Shown piece after piece: positions 45,041 to 61,535 of a stretch of 64,000 nt of DNA. The notes under the pieces were generated by a model. The model worked only from the letters and a program-made list of their open reading frames with translations, made no database searches and was not told the origin of the DNA. The stretch is from positions 186,001 to 250,000 of the forward strand of contig NZ_JACXWX010000005.1 of NCBI RefSeq assembly GCF_014764505.1, given 5' to 3'. Every line of letters begins with the position of its first letter. The first letter of the stretch is position 1. The translations under genes were made by a program, and so were the position numbers. The stretch is from Phormidium tenue FACHB-886 (GTDB lineage: Bacteria; Cyanobacteriota; Cyanobacteriia; Elainellales; Elainellaceae).

Positions 45041-45399
45041 GGTGCCGCTAGTTGACTCCTATCGGGGTCGGAAGAAGAACGGAGCTAGTCGCCGCGCTGG
45101 GGTGCATCTCAACGCGTTTAGCCTGTCTGGTGAAATGAGCGAGCCTGCTTCAAACACCCAACAGGATAGACTTGGGATGCACTCATCTCACTATCCTAGT
45201 GTTGCGGCAGTAAGATGTTGACAAATCGCTCAGATTCACTATGGAATTAGTAGATTCCTGAGCTTTATGCTACAGTTTCTTGTGCCTAATGCTATAGTAA
45301 TCACCAGCTACAGCCACATTGCCTCTATTCTGCCCACAATTGTCCATTAAGGAACGATTGGCAGAACAAGTCAAAAACGGTAGCTGTCTAGCATTAACT
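45041..45399. other. Intergenic region before tRNA-Arg
   Basis: No convincing protein gene in about 360 bp. It holds the promoter of the leftward conserved gene and presumably that of tRNA-Arg. A 60-residue plus-strand frame here reads as a shadow. Confidence 0.45.
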
Positions 45400-45473
45400 G
45401 CTCCAGTAGCTCAGCTGGATAGAGCAACTGCCTTCTAAGCAGTCGGTCACAGGTTCGAGTCCTGTCTGGGGCG
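45400..45473 (+). tRNA. tRNA-Arg (anticodon UCU)
   Basis: 74-nt cloverleaf. Acceptor arm GCTCCAG pairs with CTGGGGC plus discriminator G; D-arm around AGCTCAGCTGGATAGAGC; anticodon stem ACTGC/GCAGT with loop CTTCTAA, anticodon TCT; T-arm CACAGGTTCGAGTCCTGT. CCA is not encoded. A tyrosine integrase starts 130 bp downstream, so its 3' half (about 45440-45473) is the likely attachment site of the element. Confidence 0.96.
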
Positions 45474-45603
45474 TGCCTCTAAAATCAGGTGTTTCAGCCT
45501 TCTTGACCTTGATTTCAGAGCGATTAACCATCTATAGGAGTTACGAATAATTGGTTCTAATTCCTTCTAATTCATCCTAAATTAGATCAGCTTTAGGATT
45601 TTG

Positions 45604-46725
45604 ATGGCGCGAAAGATCTACACGCTAGAGGCAGTAAACGATCGCCTGAGAGCCTCTCACATCGGTGTTGAGGTACTTCAGCGTGGGCGAAAACTGTCGC
45701 TGAGGGCCACCCTACCACCGAAACCAGGCAGCGACAAATCTAAGCCGCATCAACAGATTATCTCGACTGGCAAATACTCCACGCCGGAAGGACTTGAGGA
45801 AGCAGAGGCGATCGCCATGGAACTGCGATCCCAGCTTCAACGCGGACGTTTTAGCTGGGAGGCTTGGTCAGAGGAATCAGCACCCGTCGATCGAGAATCG
45901 TGCGGGTCGGTTATAGCTCGCTATAAACCTTACTGCCTTAAGCAGATCATCAAGAAATCTGGTGAGGAAGGCGAGCGGGTTTGGCACAAACAATTTTGGC
46001 TCTACTTAAAACATCTTCCTGCCGAGTCGAAGCTAACACCAGAGATGCTGATCCGAGTCGCTGAAAATTCAACCGAGGAAAATACTCGCAGCAGACAAAT
46101 TTGCTGTCAGGAATTTAAAAGATTGGCAGAGTTCGCGGGAGTGGCGATCGATTTTTCGTCTTACACCGGAAACTACTCGCCCAAATCAGCGAAGCGTGAG
46201 ATCCCTTCGGATGAGGAGATCGCCGAAGCGATCGACCAGATGAAAAATCTGAAGTGGCGCTGGATCGCTGGCATGATGGCAACCTTTGGGCTACGCGACC
46301 ATGAGTGCTGGCTCTGCTCGGTAACGTGGCAGCAGTCGGACCAGTCCCCCGTGCTGGCAGTGCGGGTTGAAGATGAAACAAAAACAGGAGAGCGAGAGGT
46401 GCTGCCATTTCATCCAGAATGGGTGGAGCGCTGGCAACTCTGGGATGTGCAGCGCCCAGATGTAACAGCGAAGTGGCTGAAAGATTACAGCGATCGCACC
46501 TGTAAAGCGTTCAAGCGATTGAAAGTAGGGTTCACGCCTTACACACTTCGCCACGCCTGGTGCATCCGTGCTTCAGTTTTCTATAAACTGCCTCTGCCTG
46601 TCGCGTCCGCCATGGCTGGACATTCTCCAGCGGTGCATCTGGCAACCTATAATCGCTGGATTTCAGCGGCACAATACCACAGCGCCTACAGCGAGGCGAT
46701 CGCCCAAGTGCGACGAGGAATTTAA
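45604..46725 (+). CDS. Tyrosine site-specific integrase
   Basis: 373 residues from ATG 45604. N-terminal arm-binding and SAM-like DNA-binding regions, then the catalytic domain: Arg 231 in MMATFGLRDHE, Lys 260 in the TKTGEREV hairpin, TPYTLRHAW (Arg 316; the box-II His position is Tyr, a common variant), AGHS with His 340, and nucleophile Tyr 349 in ATYNRW. It catalyses integration and excision at the adjacent tRNA-Arg. It reads away from the tRNA and marks the left end of the element. Confidence 0.93.
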   Translation: MARKIYTLEAVNDRLRASHIGVEVLQRGRKLSLRATLPPKPGSDKSKPHQQIISTGKYSTPEGLEEAEAIAMELRSQLQRGRFSWEAWSEESAPVDRESCGSVIARYKPYCLKQIIKKSGEEGERVWHKQFWLYLKHLPAESKLTPEMLIRVAENSTEENTRSRQICCQEFKRLAEFAGVAIDFSSYTGNYSPKSAKREIPSDEEIAEAIDQMKNLKWRWIAGMMATFGLRDHECWLCSVTWQQSDQSPVLAVRVEDETKTGEREVLPFHPEWVERWQLWDVQRPDVTAKWLKDYSDRTCKAFKRLKVGFTPYTLRHAWCIRASVFYKLPLPVASAMAGHSPAVHLATYNRWISAAQYHSAYSEAIAQVRRGI

Positions 46726-49778: not shown

Positions 49779-50026
49779 TAGCCCCACCTCAACAAATCTT
49801 CTAGCTGTTCTTTCAACCGTTCAAACCAGTCGCATACAAAGCTTTCTGCCGTCTCAAAATCAGGGAATTGCTTTGCAAGAATTCGCGTTCCTCCAGCGTA
49901 AATAGTCAGTCCATACACAAAGCTGTCATCTTCCAGCCTGGAGGGCGATATCCAGACAGCGATCGGGAAACCCTCGGTGGGCGGTTTCATCTCGTAATTA
50001 GCAGCGTGGCGCGTCCAGTGAATCAT
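49778..50026 (-). CDS. Small unknown element protein
   Basis: 82 residues. AVWISPSRLEDDSFVYGLTIYAGGTRILAKQFPDFETAESFVCDWFERLKEQL: a beta-beta-alpha fold with an aromatic surface. Coupled by ATGA to the large gene above and by TAATG to the gene below. Function unknown. Confidence 0.65.
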   Translation of the reverse strand: MIHWTRHAANYEMKPPTEGFPIAVWISPSRLEDDSFVYGLTIYAGGTRILAKQFPDFETAESFVCDWFERLKEQLEDLLRWG

Positions 50027-52113
50027 GCCACCTCCTTACGCCGATCGAACTCCTCATTCATCCAAAGCTCGATCGTCTCCAGTTCACCATCACTGCACCA
50101 GCTCAATATCTTGATCGCAACATCCTTCATGCTCAATCCCCTTCCAAACTGGACGATGAACTGCTCTGCTGCAGCACGGGCGCGATCGACAGGCTTAACT
50201 GCGCTTAAGTTGACAGACTCAACGGTTTCGACTGCATTAGATGGTGCAACTGTAGGAACAGCCTGCTCAACTTGTGGCACTTCCAAATCCGAAACGGTTT
50301 CGGTTTTGGCATCCGCTCTGCGATAACCGAAATCAACGAACTGACCGGGCGTGAGTTTATCGAGTGTGCCATCCTCCCACTGCACTTCCAAATGAGGCGC
50401 GATCGCCATCACCCTCCCACCCTGCAGCTCTGATTCGATCGCATCTCCAGTCTGCAAGCCAGCAATCGCAGCAGGCGGATTCTGATAGTTGTGGATGCGG
50501 GCAGCTTTAGCGCGGCAGTAGTCGAGCTTTGCCTGTGCTTGAGTCAGGCTATCGAAGACGATGCTCCAGCCAACAACCTCGAAGCAGTAGGGATGCTTAC
50601 CGGATACCGCTCGCTTGAACGCTCCAGGCGCGAACTCATCGAACTTCTGCTGCACTTCTTCAAAGGGTGGCTCATCAGCAGGTACAGCAGACTTGAGCCG
50701 CCGAAGGATACCGATCGCATCTTTGTAGGTCGTATCCGGCTGCATCACCGCTTCGAGCTGCTGCCAGTTCTCTGGCTTGGCGATCTGCATGTAGAGCTGA
50801 GCCGATCGATCTCCCACAGCAGGGCAGTTTTCCTTCAGCCATGTGCCCCACTGTCCGTGAGGGACATGTGATTTTGCCTCTAACAGCCGATCGCCCTGCT
50901 GCTTACGGAGCTGGAGAGCAGCTTTACCCGCAGCGATCGAGGTGGTTTCGGCTTCGTCTGCCTGGGACTGGAGATCATTGATTTGGGTAGCGAGTTGGTG
51001 CAGGTCTGAGGGGACGATCGCGGTTGAGATATCCGACAGGCTGTCGCTTTTCTCCAGGTCTGGGGCGATCGCCTGCTCTGGTGGGATAAGCTCTTCATCC
51101 TGGGATTCTAGTTCGGTAGTAATCAAACCTTCTGGCTCTGCTGCTCCTCCTGCGATCGGTTCCACTGGCTCTGCTGCTGCCTGCATTGCCTTATCCATTT
51201 CCTCTATGACCTGCTCAGCGGTCATCGGCGGCGCGGCTGGCTCTGGCTCTGGCAAGGGTTCATTGCCCGCATAGGGTTGCAAGCATTGCGGATTGACCAT
51301 GCACACAGACATCGAACCTTCTGCGGTGCGGATTTGCGGGTAAAACTTGCCGCTGCTTCTAGTGAAACAGACGATCGTTCCGTGCTGTCGATTGAGTTCG
51401 CTTGCCCAGCCATCCTTGTAGGCGTTCTCGGTGTTGATATCTTCGGTAACACGATCGCCCACCTTCCAGTGCAACTCAAACGGTAGAAGCTCCTGCAGTT
51501 GGATTTTGCTGGTTTCGCCTGTGTCCCATTCCACAACGGCTTCCACGGTATCCGCATGGCTATAGCCATCGATTATCTTGCCGGGAATCCAGCCCTGCTC
51601 AAACTTAGCAATGACGCGATCGCCGTCATCCAGGTTTACCCAAGCGGGTTCGCTAACCTCGTACTCGATCTCGCCCTGGGCAATGGTTTTATGGTCTTCG
51701 TCTCCCAGCCAGTTTGCTGCCAGCGCTTTGTAATATCTCACGCCGTCATCTGGCTCGGTTCTAAACAAATCAACTTCATCGATGTACAGCGGATATGCTG
51801 CGCCTTTCACTTTGACCCACTGCTCTGGGTAATACTTGAACTCCCAGGGGCGCAACCTTGAAAGCTCAAAGGTATTTTCAAAGCGATTGGAAAGCTTCTG
51901 GAGATGGGCGATCGCTCCATCGATTTTCAGAATCTTCCATGCTGCTTGAGAATTCGTATCAATGTAGACTCGATCGCCTACCTTAAACCCCTCGTTTTTG
52001 CCCTCAGAAGAAACTTGGGCGGGTTCAACGGCTTCTGATACCTGTGGGGTGGGTTTAACCGCCTTGCTGCGGCTTGTTCGTGCGTTGCTTGTTCGTTTTG
52101 TTTGAGCTGCCAT
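50023..52113 (-). CDS. Large element protein with DUF3102-like and KOW/Tudor-like segments
   Basis: 696 residues from ATG 52113 (the frame continues upstream to 52425 but there it shadows two other genes). N-terminus basic; three or four beta segments beginning VGDRV or DGDRV (near residues 45, 165 and 230, and a later QTGDAIESELQGG), which look like KOW/Tudor-type repeats; an acidic Pro/Ala/Glu linker; a central block LRKQQGDRLLEAKSHVPHGQWGTWLKENCPAVGDRSAQLYMQIAK typical of DUF3102; and a C-terminal helix. It contains one copy of the dispersed palindrome (50289-50303). Function unknown; DUF3102 proteins occur on phages and plasmids. Confidence 0.7.
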   Translation of the reverse strand: MAAQTKRTSNARTSRSKAVKPTPQVSEAVEPAQVSSEGKNEGFKVGDRVYIDTNSQAAWKILKIDGAIAHLQKLSNRFENTFELSRLRPWEFKYYPEQWVKVKGAAYPLYIDEVDLFRTEPDDGVRYYKALAANWLGDEDHKTIAQGEIEYEVSEPAWVNLDDGDRVIAKFEQGWIPGKIIDGYSHADTVEAVVEWDTGETSKIQLQELLPFELHWKVGDRVTEDINTENAYKDGWASELNRQHGTIVCFTRSSGKFYPQIRTAEGSMSVCMVNPQCLQPYAGNEPLPEPEPAAPPMTAEQVIEEMDKAMQAAAEPVEPIAGGAAEPEGLITTELESQDEELIPPEQAIAPDLEKSDSLSDISTAIVPSDLHQLATQINDLQSQADEAETTSIAAGKAALQLRKQQGDRLLEAKSHVPHGQWGTWLKENCPAVGDRSAQLYMQIAKPENWQQLEAVMQPDTTYKDAIGILRRLKSAVPADEPPFEEVQQKFDEFAPGAFKRAVSGKHPYCFEVVGWSIVFDSLTQAQAKLDYCRAKAARIHNYQNPPAAIAGLQTGDAIESELQGGRVMAIAPHLEVQWEDGTLDKLTPGQFVDFGYRRADAKTETVSDLEVPQVEQAVPTVAPSNAVETVESVNLSAVKPVDRARAAAEQFIVQFGRGLSMKDVAIKILSWCSDGELETIELWMNEEFDRRKEVA
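50289..50303. repeat. Dispersed palindrome copy 1
   Basis: CCGAAACGGTTTCGG, perfect 7-bp arms around one base, inside the DUF3102-like gene where it encodes part of KTETVSD. Flanks match copy 4 through ATCC...TTTTGGC. Confidence 0.7.
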
Positions 52114-52207
52114 AGTTAGATTTCTGTTTTGGTGAAGCGGGGTGGTTAGATTTTGGGTGAGGAGGTCAGTTATCTCTGAGCCTCTTGAGTTCTTCCAAGG
52201 CAGCCGC

Positions 52208-52432
52208 TCACAGAGCCAACAGCCTGCTGGTTTCGTGTCGTCTGACCTCTGCAGAGCAACGGGAACTGCCGACAAAGCGATTAATGAGGCTGAGATAGTA
52301 GGCAGCTTTGGCTTCCTGCCAAGCAATCGCGTGAGGATTTGGAGGTGGGGCGATCGGCTGGAGGTTCTCGCAAACTCCGAGAACTTCGGTTTCCTTTGGG
52401 GTGAGCTGGTAGGTGAGGAGGTCAAGCTGCAT
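52208..52432 (-). CDS. Small unknown element protein
   Basis: 74 residues, overlapping the end of the gene above by 11 bp with GGAGG just before its ATG. The helical stretch AIAWQEAKAAYYLSLINRF and an N-terminal LTPKETEVLGVCENL suggest a small regulatory protein. No family recognised, and the gene is supported mainly by context. Confidence 0.5.
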   Translation of the reverse strand: MQLDLLTYQLTPKETEVLGVCENLQPIAPPPNPHAIAWQEAKAAYYLSLINRFVGSSRCSAEVRRHETSRLLAL

Positions 52433-52826: not shown

Positions 52827-53209
52827 CAGTCCTCCTCCACAATCACGCCATTGAACGCAGAGGCGATCGCCTCTGCCGCCATCTGCGCCGCCTCATCGTC
52901 AGGAGGAATCCGCACGCCTACCTTGCGAGTGCCGTCTGTCACGATGAAGCCATCGGGTCCTAGGATCCGAATCGATCGATCGCGGTAGATGGTCAGCGGC
53001 ATCTCTTCAGTCACCAGCAGCGCTACGCCGTTGAGGTGATGAAGTTGGAGCCGATCGCACTGGTGCAGCGGGTAGAACTGCTCGCACACATCCAGCAGGC
53101 AGGGAACGCCATTGCGGGGGACGATGCGCCGCTGTGGAGCGAAGATCGTCTTGTCGGGAACGTGACAGACCAGCGGGGCGGTTTTGAGCCATTCTGGAGC
53201 GGCGATCAT
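52826..53209 (-). CDS. Unknown element protein
   Basis: 127 residues. Beta-rich: VPCLLDVCEQFYPLHQCDRLQLHHLNGVALLV, SIRILGPDGFIVTDGTRKVGVRIPP, followed by a helix QMAAEAIASAF. No family recognised. ATGA overlap with the candidate helicase loader above. Confidence 0.6.
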   Translation of the reverse strand: MIAAPEWLKTAPLVCHVPDKTIFAPQRRIVPRNGVPCLLDVCEQFYPLHQCDRLQLHHLNGVALLVTEEMPLTIYRDRSIRILGPDGFIVTDGTRKVGVRIPPDDEAAQMAAEAIASAFNGVIVEED

Positions 53210-53655
53210 TGTGCGGCTCCCTTCACATCGCTGCCAGCTTGAGCCGCCTTCGCTGCATCAACAAACTGCTGCGTTTCGACTGCCAGCACATCGACGATCG
53301 AACTCATCTGCGCCTGCTGAGAGCGGAGGTTTGAGATCTGCAGCCGGGTCTGCTGGAGGACAGCACGATATTCGGCTTGCTCCTCCGGGGTCATATCGAC
53401 GTAGGCTTTGACCTCGCCAGCGGGAAGCTGCGGCTGGGGGGAGAGCGATCGAGCTAGCTTGATGAACTCAACTGGCGTGGGTAACGGAGGGACGCCCTCG
53501 GTGAATAGCTTCTGCGCCGCTTTGACAAACTCCTCGGTGGTGAGCCGCTCATTGATGCTGGCGTAGTAGAGCGCGATCGTCGTTGGGCTAAACCGGATGC
53601 TGAACCGCTCCAGCACGCCGATGAATAGGGGTTCAAAGGTCTTGTAGTCGATCAT
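53206..53655 (-). CDS. Candidate helicase loader (G39P / lambda P-like)
   Basis: 149 residues, directly after the initiator gene and coupled to it by ATGA. The N-terminal half TFEPLFIGVLERFSIRFSPTTIALYYASINERLTTEEFVKAAQKLFTEGVPPLPTPVEF has the pattern of phage loader N-domains: a helix bundle ending in a G-x-PPLPTPVEF turn, where G39P and lambda-P-type proteins have G-x-FPTP-E-F. A coiled-coil region follows (MTPEEQAEYRAVLQQTRLQISNL). The assignment rests on this motif and gene order. Confidence 0.55.
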   Translation of the reverse strand: MIDYKTFEPLFIGVLERFSIRFSPTTIALYYASINERLTTEEFVKAAQKLFTEGVPPLPTPVEFIKLARSLSPQPQLPAGEVKAYVDMTPEEQAEYRAVLQQTRLQISNLRSQQAQMSSIVDVLAVETQQFVDAAKAAQAGSDVKGAAQ

Positions 53656-54716
53656 GGCTTGAGTCCTAGTAGCTGCATCGCCTGACTAACAGCCGCCGCC
53701 GCTGAATAGCCACTGCCGGTAGAGACAGGCGTAGGGGAAGGGGGATTGTGGTGAAGGTCGATCGCCAGCTGCCACAGATCCTGCAACTCGCGAGTTTCAT
53801 CGCATTTGAGGCTGTAGTTGGAATGGAGCGCTGAGGTGTCTTTGCGCCTCAGAATCTTGTTGATGTTGGGCAGGTTGGGCTGTCCGTTGGGCAGGTCGTA
53901 AATGCTGCCGGGCTTGTGCGGATTGCGCCCGGTCTGAAGAACTGCCTGCACCATCTGCGGGTGAAAGCTGCCATCTTCCAGCCGCCATGGTGGGCGCTTG
54001 TGCTGCTTGTAAAACTCACGCCAGTTTTCCACAGGCGGCGGCGCAGCGGCGGAAAAGTCGTCCTGTTTCTCACCTACAGGCTGAGTTGTTAACAGCGGTT
54101 CCAAGCATTGACGATCGCAGTTCCCTTCCGGCTTGGGTTCGGATTCCATTTCCGAAACCGTTTCGGATTTAACTTCGATCGCTTCTTCGTTTTTGTGGGT
54201 GGGTGCGCTGTTTAAACAAGTTTGATTAGTATTTAAAGTCTTTAAAGTATGAGGAGATCTAGAACCCTTGTCCTGTGCGGATTCTGGAGGCTGAAAGTTG
54301 TCTGTAGACAACAATTGTTGTGTAGCGATCATCTCGGTTGTCTGTAGACAACTCAAATGATCTGTAGACAACTCAGATGATCCACAGACAACACCTTGAT
54401 CACTACACAACGGGTTGTCTGTAGACAACGGGTTGTCTGTAGACAACACCCCTTTGGAGTGCAACCGGACTTTAGCGTGGGTAATTTCCAGGTCAATCCA
54501 GCTTTTTTCGTTCAATGCCTTTAATGCCCGACTGACCGTACCTTTGTTGACCTTTAGTTGATTGGCGATTGATGTCACCTCAACTTCAATGTCTCTATCC
54601 CCAAAGGGGTCAAGTGTCCTCAAATAGAATAAAACTGCCATCTCTGCAGGCTTTAGCTCTGCATAGGCTTTCAGCCATTCATCGGTTGTCAGAGGATAGT
54701 AGAGTCGCTTGCTCAC
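53652..54716 (-). CDS. Winged-helix replication initiator (lambda O-like) with internal iterons
   Basis: 354 residues, GTG start at 54716 behind a GGAGGTGAGGA stretch. Residues 1-85 form a winged helix (KPAEMAVLFYLRTLDPFGDRD ... TSIANQLKVNKGTVSRALKAL) like RepA/O-type DNA-binding domains. Residues about 90-140 are a linker in which LSTDN or a variant recurs; each is encoded by a 16-bp palindrome. A Ser/Pro-rich linker and a conserved-looking C-terminal part (ENWREFYKQHKRPPWRLEDG) follow, which could contact the loader encoded next. Lambda O has the same order of DNA-binding domain, origin within the gene, and loader gene after it. It also holds one dispersed palindrome (54152-54166). Confidence 0.65.
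   Translation of the reverse strand: MSKRLYYPLTTDEWLKAYAELKPAEMAVLFYLRTLDPFGDRDIEVEVTSIANQLKVNKGTVSRALKALNEKSWIDLEITHAKVRLHSKGVLSTDNPLSTDNPLCSDQGVVCGSSELSTDHLSCLQTTEMIATQQLLSTDNFQPPESAQDKGSRSPHTLKTLNTNQTCLNSAPTHKNEEAIEVKSETVSEMESEPKPEGNCDRQCLEPLLTTQPVGEKQDDFSAAAPPPVENWREFYKQHKRPPWRLEDGSFHPQMVQAVLQTGRNPHKPGSIYDLPNGQPNLPNINKILRRKDTSALHSNYSLKCDETRELQDLWQLAIDLHHNPPSPTPVSTGSGYSAAAAVSQAMQLLGLKP
54152..54166. repeat. Dispersed palindrome copy 2
   Basis: CCGAAACCGTTTCGG, the reverse-strand form of the same 15-mer, in the initiator gene 45 bp beyond the AT-rich stretch. Encodes part of KSETVSE, the same residues as copy 1. Confidence 0.7.
54211..54250. other. AT-rich candidate unwinding element
   Basis: 40 nt with 33 A/T inside the initiator gene, beside the iterons and far richer in A/T than the coding sequence around it. 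Contains the direct repeat TTTAAAGT twice, 10 bp apart. Position and composition fit a DNA unwinding element. Confidence 0.55.
54297..54447. repeat. Palindromic iteron cluster, candidate replication origin
   Basis: Four perfect copies of GTTGTCTGTAGACAAC at 54297-54312, 54337-54352, 54414-54429 and 54432-54447, plus two degenerate copies at 54361-54372 and 54381-54392. The last two perfect copies are 18 bp apart. All are inside the initiator gene, where each unit encodes LSTDN or a variant. Confidence 0.75.
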
Positions 54717-58959: not shown

Positions 58960-61419
58960 TCATTGGAATCGTGGCAGAAGTGATACGGGTAGCAGCAGTG
59001 TTTCCTCAATCTCTTGGCGAACTTCATGGCTCACATAGCAATCGCTGTTGAGACAATTGACCAGCAGCAGATTCGCGTCGTAGTACTGTTTCAATACTTG
59101 TTTTTGATCGTTGCTAAACTGCCAATCATGACCAATGTTGCGATGTTCAATCATCACAGTTCTTAATTGCTCAGTCCAGCTTTGACTATTTGCTTGCCAC
59201 CACTTCTTCAAATTGTCCAAGCTCTCAAAGTCTGCACTCTTAAAGTCTGCATTTGATAGCCGATTCCTAAGCTGTTGCAGTGCTAGGTGCAATTTACGGG
59301 CGCGGTCGAGGTCGAGGTCGAGGTCACGGTCGCGGTCGCGGTCGAGGTCGAGGTCGTGGGCGAGGTCGTGGGCGAGGTCGAGAGCGCGGTCGAGGTCGAG
59401 GTCGTGGGCGAGGTCGAGGGCGCGGGCGAGGTCGCGGACGAGGGCGCGGTTGAGGTTGAGGGCGCGGACGAGGGCGCGGTCGCGGTCGCGGTTGAGGTCG
59501 AGGTCGAGGTCGCGGACGAGGGCGCGGTTGAGGTTGAGGGCGCGGGCGCGGTCGCGGTCGCGGTCGCGGGCGCGGGCGAGGGCGCGACCGCGGTCGAGGT
59601 CGAGGTCGAGGGCGCGGGCGAGGGCGCGACCGCGCTCAAGGTAGAAGGCTCGAATAGCAGCAGGTTTATAGGGTGCTCCTACAGAAAGAGACTTTTCATT
59701 CACCCAAGATAGGAAGCGCTGAAGCTTCTCATCTCGGCTTACCAAGCTATCGATCTGCTGTTTCATCAGCTGCAATAAATCATCTGCACTCTCCAGCATC
59801 CCCACGCTCAGCAAGAACACTTCTCTCCAGCGCTGTTCAGTCACATGACTTGCTAGTTGTTGCAGTAGTTCATCGCTCCGTCTTTCTTTAATCCGTCTGG
59901 CAGCAAAGTACTCCTGGAACGTGAGATGCGAAAAGGAGTAGATACCCCGCGCTCGTTCGACCAGTAGCCCATGCTGTGCCTCAATCGACTTGAGGATGAC
60001 TTCACTGTCTTGTTCTATTTCCTCTCGATTAACATTGACGCGGGATAGGTTGCGAATATAGCGAGCAATCTGCTGCTCAACCGCTGTTTGTTTAAAGAAG
60101 TAATTCCCCTGTTCAAAGGTTTCCAGTGCAATCTGACTTAGCAAATCTTCCTTGCGCTGCAGCGACAGCTTCTTGTAGACTTGGTCGCGCTCGATGTTGC
60201 GTTTGATGTCCCACTTTTTGAGCAATACATCCAACCCCTCTTTGTATAGCTCAGCGCGATTGACCGGGAAACTGCCGGATTCCTCAAACACAATACAAAG
60301 CAGCGTTAGCAACAACGGATTGGTGGCTAGCTCCCGGATGCGCGATTCTTCTTTTATCTTCTGCATGAATCGCTCTGCCTTCACCAGGTCATCTTTAGCT
60401 AAAAACCATTTGTTAGCAAAGCTCTTAATTTGTTCATTATCGAAGTCGGCAATTTCAACTTCAGTAAACTGTTCAAAAGTGTATTCTCGGGCTGCAATGC
60501 GACAAGTCATTACAACCTGGTTGCTATCAAACTTGTCAGTGAAGTCTCGAATTTCTTGCAATACACGAGAGCTATCGGCTTCCTTGACCTCGTCTAAGCC
60601 ATCCAACAATACAAGCAGGCGTCCTGCCTTCAGGAGCTGCTCAACAGAGGTTTCGGTCCAGTTCAGAAAAGCCTGAATCAAGCCTGCTTTCATCTTCAAA
60701 TTAGAGGTCAAGCCATAGCTACTGAAAAGTTGATGCAAATAGTTCAATAGACTCGGCTGATCAACGGCTTCTGCAAAGTCTTTGAGCGTCACAAATACTG
60801 GAATCCGTTCTGCTTGGAATGCCCCACCAATGCATTGAATCGCCAAATACTTGAGGAATGTCGTCTTTCCAGCTCCCGGTTTACCCAAGATCATTAGCTT
60901 AGAGTGTTGTTCAACAGCGTCTAATCCTGGAGTTCGAGTTTCACGTATGTTGCTCAAGCCAAAGCGCTCGAAGTCATCCACAGGAGCATCTTTGAGTAAT
61001 TGATCGATTCCTAATCGTCTGCGTCCAGCAATCTTCTCTAAAAGGTTGACGTGGGTGTAGATGTCATCTAGTCCAATAGGGTGGCTCATATCCAACACCC
61101 GCATCGTGCCACACCGCTTTTGTATTTTGTCTCGGATGGCTTCGCGCACTTGCTGCACTAACTCGTCGATGCTGGTCGGTAAATCTGCTTGCTGCACTCC
61201 AGCTTCCGGTTCAGCAATCTCGCCCCACTCTAGCCCCAGCTCCGTGCAGATCGCTTGAAAGAGTGACTTCTCAACCGCTCGTCTAGCGAAGAAGTTGCCC
61301 ACCACCTGACGGGTACAGCGTGCACCGCCTGCCAAGTAATCTTGGGTCCATCCCTTGCGCTTAAAGGCAAGATTCGCCTGTTCCAATCCTGTGATCGACG
61401 CCCGGAGTGATCTTGTCAT
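58960..61419 (-). CDS. NACHT NTPase, NLR-like candidate defence protein
   Basis: 819 residues from ATG 61419 (830 from an ATG at 61452). N-terminal HTH-like domain (RKGWTQDYLAGGARCTRQVVGNFFARRAVE), then NACHT: Walker A ILGKPGAGKTTFLKYLA near 190 (long numbering), Walker B LLVLLDGLDEV, sensor VVMTCRIAAREY, and the NACHT-associated LTFQEYFAARRI. The C-terminal part has about 115 residues in which Arg or Leu alternates with Ala/Asp/Asn, then a helical end domain (IGHDWQFSNDQKQVLKQYYDANLLLVNCLN). By family knowledge such proteins act in anti-phage defence, the C-terminus sensing and the N-terminus acting as effector. The repeat type resembles the helical C-terminal domain of cyanobacterial NACHT proteins, as I recall it. 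Confidence 0.88.
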   Translation of the reverse strand: MTRSLRASITGLEQANLAFKRKGWTQDYLAGGARCTRQVVGNFFARRAVEKSLFQAICTELGLEWGEIAEPEAGVQQADLPTSIDELVQQVREAIRDKIQKRCGTMRVLDMSHPIGLDDIYTHVNLLEKIAGRRRLGIDQLLKDAPVDDFERFGLSNIRETRTPGLDAVEQHSKLMILGKPGAGKTTFLKYLAIQCIGGAFQAERIPVFVTLKDFAEAVDQPSLLNYLHQLFSSYGLTSNLKMKAGLIQAFLNWTETSVEQLLKAGRLLVLLDGLDEVKEADSSRVLQEIRDFTDKFDSNQVVMTCRIAAREYTFEQFTEVEIADFDNEQIKSFANKWFLAKDDLVKAERFMQKIKEESRIRELATNPLLLTLLCIVFEESGSFPVNRAELYKEGLDVLLKKWDIKRNIERDQVYKKLSLQRKEDLLSQIALETFEQGNYFFKQTAVEQQIARYIRNLSRVNVNREEIEQDSEVILKSIEAQHGLLVERARGIYSFSHLTFQEYFAARRIKERRSDELLQQLASHVTEQRWREVFLLSVGMLESADDLLQLMKQQIDSLVSRDEKLQRFLSWVNEKSLSVGAPYKPAAIRAFYLERGRALARALDLDLDRGRALARARDRDRDRARALNLNRALVRDLDLDLNRDRDRALVRALNLNRALVRDLARALDLAHDLDLDRALDLAHDLAHDLDLDRDRDRDLDLDLDRARKLHLALQQLRNRLSNADFKSADFESLDNLKKWWQANSQSWTEQLRTVMIEHRNIGHDWQFSNDQKQVLKQYYDANLLLVNCLNSDCYVSHEVRQEIEETLLLPVSLLPRFQ
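59293..59640. repeat. Hexamer-based tandem repeat in the NACHT gene
   Basis: About 345 bp built almost entirely of 6-bp units such as GAGGTC, GCGGTC, GGGCGC and GTGGGC, with no stop codon in several frames on both strands. On the coding strand each unit encodes a dipeptide (D-L, D-R, A-L, N-R). Length is in multiples of three, so slippage by whole units keeps the frame. Confidence 0.85.
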
Positions 61420-61535
61420 ATGCTTACCAGAACATTTACATAAGTCTGACATAACCCCAACGCCTTACCCTAACCCAGCTTCGGCGATTCTCAAAGATGC
61501 TGAAAGAGTCCACTTAACGAACTCGGTATAAGGCA

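Follow-up and report, generated by a model that had tools for sequence, protein, structure and literature searches.

The locus described here raises the question of whether an array of repeats inside a cyanobacterial winged-helix gene could be an origin of replication, carried within the gene of its own initiator and followed by the gene of a helicase loader, as in the O/P module of phage lambda. In lambda, the origin lies within O and consists of four inverted repeats, each hyphenated and 18 bp long, together with an A/T-rich region of 39 bp (PMC6022878). The window, that is, the whole stretch of DNA analyzed, spans 64,000 nucleotides of Phormidium tenue FACHB-886, and the features that bear most directly on the question are as follows:

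53652..54716, minus strand: gene of the 354-aa initiator, in which a winged-helix domain (about residues 10-85) is followed by a long disordered linker and by small helices at the C terminus
54462..54689, minus strand: winged-helix domain coding sequence; recognition helix NKGTVSRAL
54297..54447, unstranded: iteron array with half-sites every 18-20 bp, made up of four hyphenated dyads and further, decayed copies
54211..54250, unstranded: A/T-rich box, candidate DNA unwinding element; 33 of 40 bases A/T, with TTTAAAGACTTTAAA at 54232-54246
53206..53655, minus strand: 149-aa protein gene, candidate DnaB recruiter; ATGA-coupled, helical N-terminal domain with a TTEEFVKAAQKLF...LPTPVEF motif, long C-terminal helix

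Exact copies of GTTGTCTGTAGACAAC start at positions 54297, 54337, 54414 and 54432, and these four are the only ones in the 8.9-Mb genome, all of them within the winged-helix gene. When up to three mismatches are allowed, nine matches are found against an expected 0.36, a number that none of the shuffles reaches. Each copy is a 16-bp hyphenated dyad (GTTGTCT-GT-AGACAAC) with 7-bp arms around a GT centre; since the reverse complement of that centre reads AC, the palindrome is imperfect, and the preliminary description, which had reported four perfect 16-bp palindromes, was right about the four exact copies but not about their symmetry. It had further counted two decayed copies, all within 150 bp; the array, which measures 151 bp, has more half-sites than that description gave. 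The half-site AGACAAC occurs at 54306, 54346, 54366, 54386, 54405 (with one mismatch), 54423 and 54441, while GTTGTST occurs at 54297, 54317 and 54337 and also forms the left arm of each dyad at 54414 and 54432. Read by half-sites instead of whole dyads, the true period of the array is 18-20 bp. The copies fall in different frames and orientations, encoding such peptides as LSTDN, CLQTT and VVCG, which argues that it is the DNA and not the peptide that is conserved. Like the phased dyad iterons of an O-type origin, the array sits inside the winged-helix gene, 3′ of the codons for the DNA-binding domain. In viral contigs, the exact 16-mer occurs at most once per contig where it is present at all, which looks like chance.

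The A/T-rich box lies 47 bp from the array, also within the initiator gene. It is the most A/T-rich 40-mer of the window and the sole one to reach 33 A/T, and the 40-nt stretch that had been pointed out earlier is thus borne out in position, composition and distance from the repeats. Equally correct were the coordinates given for the gene, its GTG start, which stands behind GGAGGTGAGGA, and its ATGA overlap with the gene for the 149-aa protein.

In the AlphaFold model of the initiator, residues 11-80 have block-mean pLDDT values of 87-97, and values below 50 prevail over residues 82-224. The latter include those encoded by the iterons and the A/T box and are mostly predicted to be disordered, so that the putative origin would be written into the linker of the protein. 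The winged helix itself matches other winged-helix proteins with Z scores of up to 7.9 over 70 residues, as expected of a common fold, and the Pfam matches of the protein are exclusively of the helix-turn-helix type, with none to the DUF3854 or helicase-related domains of CyRepA and CyRepX. Against an O-like PHROG, the window protein scores an E-value of 0.12, and when profiles were compared directly, neither lambda O nor P22 gp18 gave a significant match. Its relatives reach E-values of 3e-6 to an O-like PHROG and 5e-9 to a replication initiation PHROG, matches that suggest homology with lambda O; for the window protein, this homology appears weak and not significant.

The gene lies in an element marked by two further features:

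45399..45474, plus strand: tRNA-Arg(TCT); an exact second copy of its bases 45427-45474 lies at window-relative 109677-109724 (contig 295677-295724), the two forming attachment repeats
45601..46725, plus strand: prophage gene for a tyrosine integrase (E 1.5e-8 to an integrase PHROG)

The exact 48-bp repeat corresponds to the last 48 bp of the tRNA gene, and its second copy lies 64,250 bp further on. Between the two are genes for terminase (7e-102), portal (6e-86), scaffold, tape measure and ParA proteins. By these features, the element can be identified as a prophage of 64 kb, located in tRNA-Arg, in agreement with its earlier designation as prophage-like: the integrase stands at the tRNA, the attachment repeats are direct, and packaging and structural genes are present. 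Two other large reading frames can be mentioned here. One (50023-52425), adjoining the replication module, encodes a protein of 800 aa in which a DUF3102 domain is recognized (E 1e-6). The other (58960-61452), inside the prophage, encodes a P-loop NTPase (GKPGAGKTTFLKYL) with a long RALDLDLDRD-type stretch that seems to be derived from a short DNA repeat; the product looks like a NACHT-type defence protein.

Initial scans of genomes and viral sequences with the window initiator alone as the query found nothing. Searches by tblastn identified homologues on 28 cyanobacterial plasmids and in no phage record, and genome searches added more, so that chromosomes are represented beside plasmids in the set of 46 non-redundant genes left once near-copies had been removed. 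Repeats were scored in each gene as 9-mers on both strands and compared with 100 synonymous-codon shuffles of the same gene. The homologues exceeded all 100 shuffles in 38 of 46 cases, a result that 7 of 60 control genes taken from these loci also gave; the remaining eight include truncated genes and others with diverged copies. The repeats lie mostly around nt 300-430 of the gene, just past the winged-helix codons, and their sequence differs by group. Exact spacings of 20 bp occur in 35 of the 46 genes, of 40 bp in 28 and of 60 bp in 21, and the copies occupy all three frames; as 20 cannot be divided by 3, the phasing is that of the DNA. The core words are almost confined to the genes, with 176 inside them, none in the 400 bp upstream and a single one in 402 kb of flanking DNA. 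As positive controls, lambda O and P22 gene 18 displayed repeats near nt 376-412, with the 20-bp spacing present. The check proposed earlier, namely whether the repeats stay in position among homologues while their sequence changes, therefore turned out in favor of the original reading of an origin within an initiator gene, the more so as dnaB is often the next gene.

Other indicators of an origin were less uniform. The DnaA-box consensus was found in 6 of the 46 genes without any pattern, and GC skew marks the gene as the origin in one of four replicons tested (plasmid p1FD4, but not the other three). Two of these plasmids are listed by MOB-suite under replicon type rep_cluster_1657. The Microcystis plasmid p1FD4, which carries this replicon, also encodes genes of a diversity-generating retroelement, including avd and a reverse transcriptase (L111 10966-11319, 26945-30293).

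The A/T box that follows the iterons is also constrained in the homologues. Excess codon identity, scored at columns with a conserved amino acid, is 0.78 in the box as compared with 0.08 in the winged helix and 0.12 in the C terminus. Its codons are nearly fixed, for example with Lys as AAG (28/28), Thr as ACT (26/26), Tyr as TAT (32/32), Phe as TTT (28/28) and Leu as CTC (36/37), a pattern that indicates selection on the DNA. The box holds AAGACT-like words about 10-11 bp apart, of which TTTAAAGACTTTAAA is the counterpart in the window, and its near-frozen state fits a candidate unwinding element.

If the winged helix reads the repeats, the two might be expected to vary together, and they do. 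The recognition helix [HN]RST goes with GTTGY in 10 of 10 genes, HRQT with GGTGY in 5 of 5, KG[TA]VSK with GTTTCC in 4 of 4 and [ST]RR[ST] with TGTCG in 9 of 9. A gene found in a relative of the host after this rule had been seen combines TKGTVSKAL with GTTTCCTACAGGA, and the window itself, with NKGTVSRAL and GTTGTC, stands between two of the classes. In a partial Mantel test that related helix to repeats while controlling for the remainder of the domain, the correlation was r 0.18 (p 0.0015); with downstream coding DNA as a control, it was r 0.003 (p 0.47). These values support a helix-specific signal in the repeat sequence. The co-variation is also in part shared ancestry, because the sites lie within the gene itself, and the remainder of the domain correlates as well.

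Signs of exchange of the segment can be seen at two kinds of loci. Between L010 and L031, two loci on Nostoc plasmids, DNA identity is 93% over dnaB and the 3′ half of the initiator gene, whereas it is 72% for the winged helix and the iterons do not align; by this comparison, the pair is a natural swap of winged helix and iterons together. At eight other loci (L088, L089, L090, L091, L092, L101, L102 and L104), a truncated initiator N terminus of 33-98 residues (KIQG.FYPLQHEEWL...) is immediately followed by another initiator, which differs from it and bears iterons. Such truncated copies are probably scars left by the replacement of an initiator-origin cassette.

The gene after the initiator is a DnaB gene in at least 19 of the 46 relatives, including most of the plasmid homologues that were examined first, and the one such DnaB that was tested scores above the NCBIfam DnaB cut-off. 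Eighteen of the downstream genes at the 46 loci begin with a 4-base ATGA overlap. In 15 of 46, the initiator is instead followed by a protein of roughly 120-220 aa with a CC.D.G motif, and the rest have other followers or none that could be assigned. Examples of this Cys-rich follower (W.CFCC.DTG...) are found at L027 6073-6645, L034 5798-6355 and L105 4840-5349; those tested had no Pfam, PHROG or NCBIfam family match, and the protein is a candidate for a new helicase recruiter.

The 149-aa protein that takes this place in the window had been proposed to be a loader of the lambda P or G39P type. It has no Pfam match, and no family or fold match was found for it; the PF11417 (G39P) profile fails to detect it, and the lambda P motif TT.E.V.A...LPSPGQF aligns to it at a non-significant P of 0.17. 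Foldseek and VIA searches with its model, which is of low confidence, returned weak and unrelated matches, a setting in which the absence of G39P is not telling. One relative is encoded on plasmid pLBA of Leptolyngbya boryana (31% identity over the alignment, E 2e-8), and none beyond it was found in phages, viral contigs or 386 cyanobacterial genomes. The pLBA relative directly follows an iteron-bearing gene (L052 4926-5990), and the 149-aa family is thus tied to in-gene origins twice. That gene is initiator-like; although no relation to the window gene is detectable in its sequence, it has the same layout, with eight 21-bp GTGC...GCAC iterons at the same place and a repeated TTCTTCAGATCT stretch; judged from its sequence, it extends the in-gene-origin layout beyond the initiator family. 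With position, a short motif and the pLBA relative for it, and the P of 0.17 and the failure of PF11417 against it, a role for the 149-aa protein as DnaB recruiter or loader is likely but unproven. The proposal of a P- or G39P-type loader is accordingly weaker than first put, with no significant match to either protein.

Several known systems place an origin within an initiator gene. In phage SPP1, the initiator G38P carries the origin in its gene and is followed by the small loader G39P and then by the DnaB-type helicase G40P. By this general description, the window is alike in having the proposed origin within the initiator gene and a small protein next to it; it differs in that PF11417 has no match to that protein. 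The record of phage P22 annotates an origin in gene 18 followed by the DnaB-type gene 12, and an initiator with its origin followed by the element's own DnaB is the commonest cyanobacterial arrangement as well. The window departs from it with the 149-aa protein in the place of the helicase, and its similarity to the P22 initiator is not significant. With lambda, the window shares hyphenated dyads of 16-18 bp that recur about every 20 bp midway along the initiator gene, an A/T-rich region of some 40 bp just 3′ of these dyads, an ATGA overlap with the next gene, and a partner that is not a helicase. Lambda differs in that neither the initiator and O nor the 149-aa protein and P match significantly, the sequences of dyads and box are unrelated, and the host here is a cyanobacterium. 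Of the lambda O/P-like replicon proposed at the outset, the array, candidate unwinding region, coupling and prophage setting therefore stand, while homology to O is not significant and the loader is unproven.

Known cyanobacterial plasmid replication proteins are few (PMC10899382). They include CyRepA and CyRepX (PMC10079941, PMC10899382), which have been described with DUF3854 or helicase-type (DEXDc/HELICc) regions, in contrast to the winged helix and intragenic iterons of the window initiator; the main text of these papers mentions neither iterons nor helix-turn-helix proteins (PMC10079941, PMC10899382). No description of this cyanobacterial initiator family was found in the open-access literature, closed journals being outside the scope of the search, and the earlier remark that no cyanobacterial case had been described holds to that extent.

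The best explanation is very probably that the gene at 54716-53652 encodes the replication initiator of the prophage and that the array inside it is its origin, resembling lambda ori. The winged-helix domain would bind the half-sites spaced 18-20 bp apart, probably as dimers, a step for which the co-variation of helix and repeats lends support. The complex of initiator and array would then strain and open the following A/T box, and the replicative DnaB helicase could be placed on the opened strand to begin replication. Many relatives would use the element's own DnaB, made from the next, overlapping gene; for the window prophage, it would most likely be host DnaB, brought by the 149-aa protein.

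A MarR-like regulator binding inside its own gene, for autorepression or as a road-block of the operon, would make the array an operator. The winged helix is indeed a common regulator fold, some relatives are annotated in their records as MarR or helix-turn-helix proteins, and initiators commonly autoregulate at their origin, so that such regulation could coexist with an origin role. As an explanation of its own, it is unlikely, since no half-site words precede any of 42 genes within 400 bp, the many helically phased sites and the nucleotide-conserved A/T box exceed what an operator needs, and the coupled gene is a DnaB gene in many relatives. That coupling, together with the A/T box, would also be left unexplained if the array were a centromere-like partition or incompatibility site. 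Plasmid iteron arrays can serve in both of these functions, ParA/ParB genes occur near some homologues and the prophage encodes a ParA; yet parAB, where present, forms a separate operon and many loci have none, and we regard this reading as rather improbable, more so than the operator.

It has the least chance of all, next to none, that the repeats are a feature of the protein, with a repetitive linker generating repeated DNA as a by-product. Three loci (L006, L052 and L067) do have in-frame repeats of 18 or 21 bp, and hence repeated peptides. In the window and most homologues, the copies are found in several frames and on both strands, the repeats exceed those of synonymous shuffles and the region is predicted to be disordered; on the grounds of frame, orientation and synonymous shuffles, this reading was rejected.

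On the preferred reading of an initiator with its origin inside its gene, site and protein share one DNA segment and would be inherited and exchanged together. We lean, with some reserve, toward a class of plasmids and prophages, extending across the cyanobacterial phylum, with origins in winged-helix genes, in which the domain and its iterons travel as a single cassette, the A/T box is frozen and the partners (own DnaB, the Cys-rich protein or the 149-aa protein) swap independently. If this is true, the class would offer a readable code of protein-DNA recognition along with a naturally occurring set of replicons that are compatible with one another, and it would include at least two unrecognized families of helicase recruiters. 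A candidate initiator, and an origin placed to within about 200 bp, can now be named for dozens of plasmids and some prophages. A protein-site pair specific to each replicon would explain how many compatible replicons can belong to one family, and may be a source of orthogonal vectors. The same pairs provide a test set for how winged helices read DNA, as in the change from Ser to Gln that goes with T to G in the site. Finally, if the class is independent of lambda, the same origin-in-initiator design would have arisen again, and if it is related, the lambdoid module would extend to another phylum.
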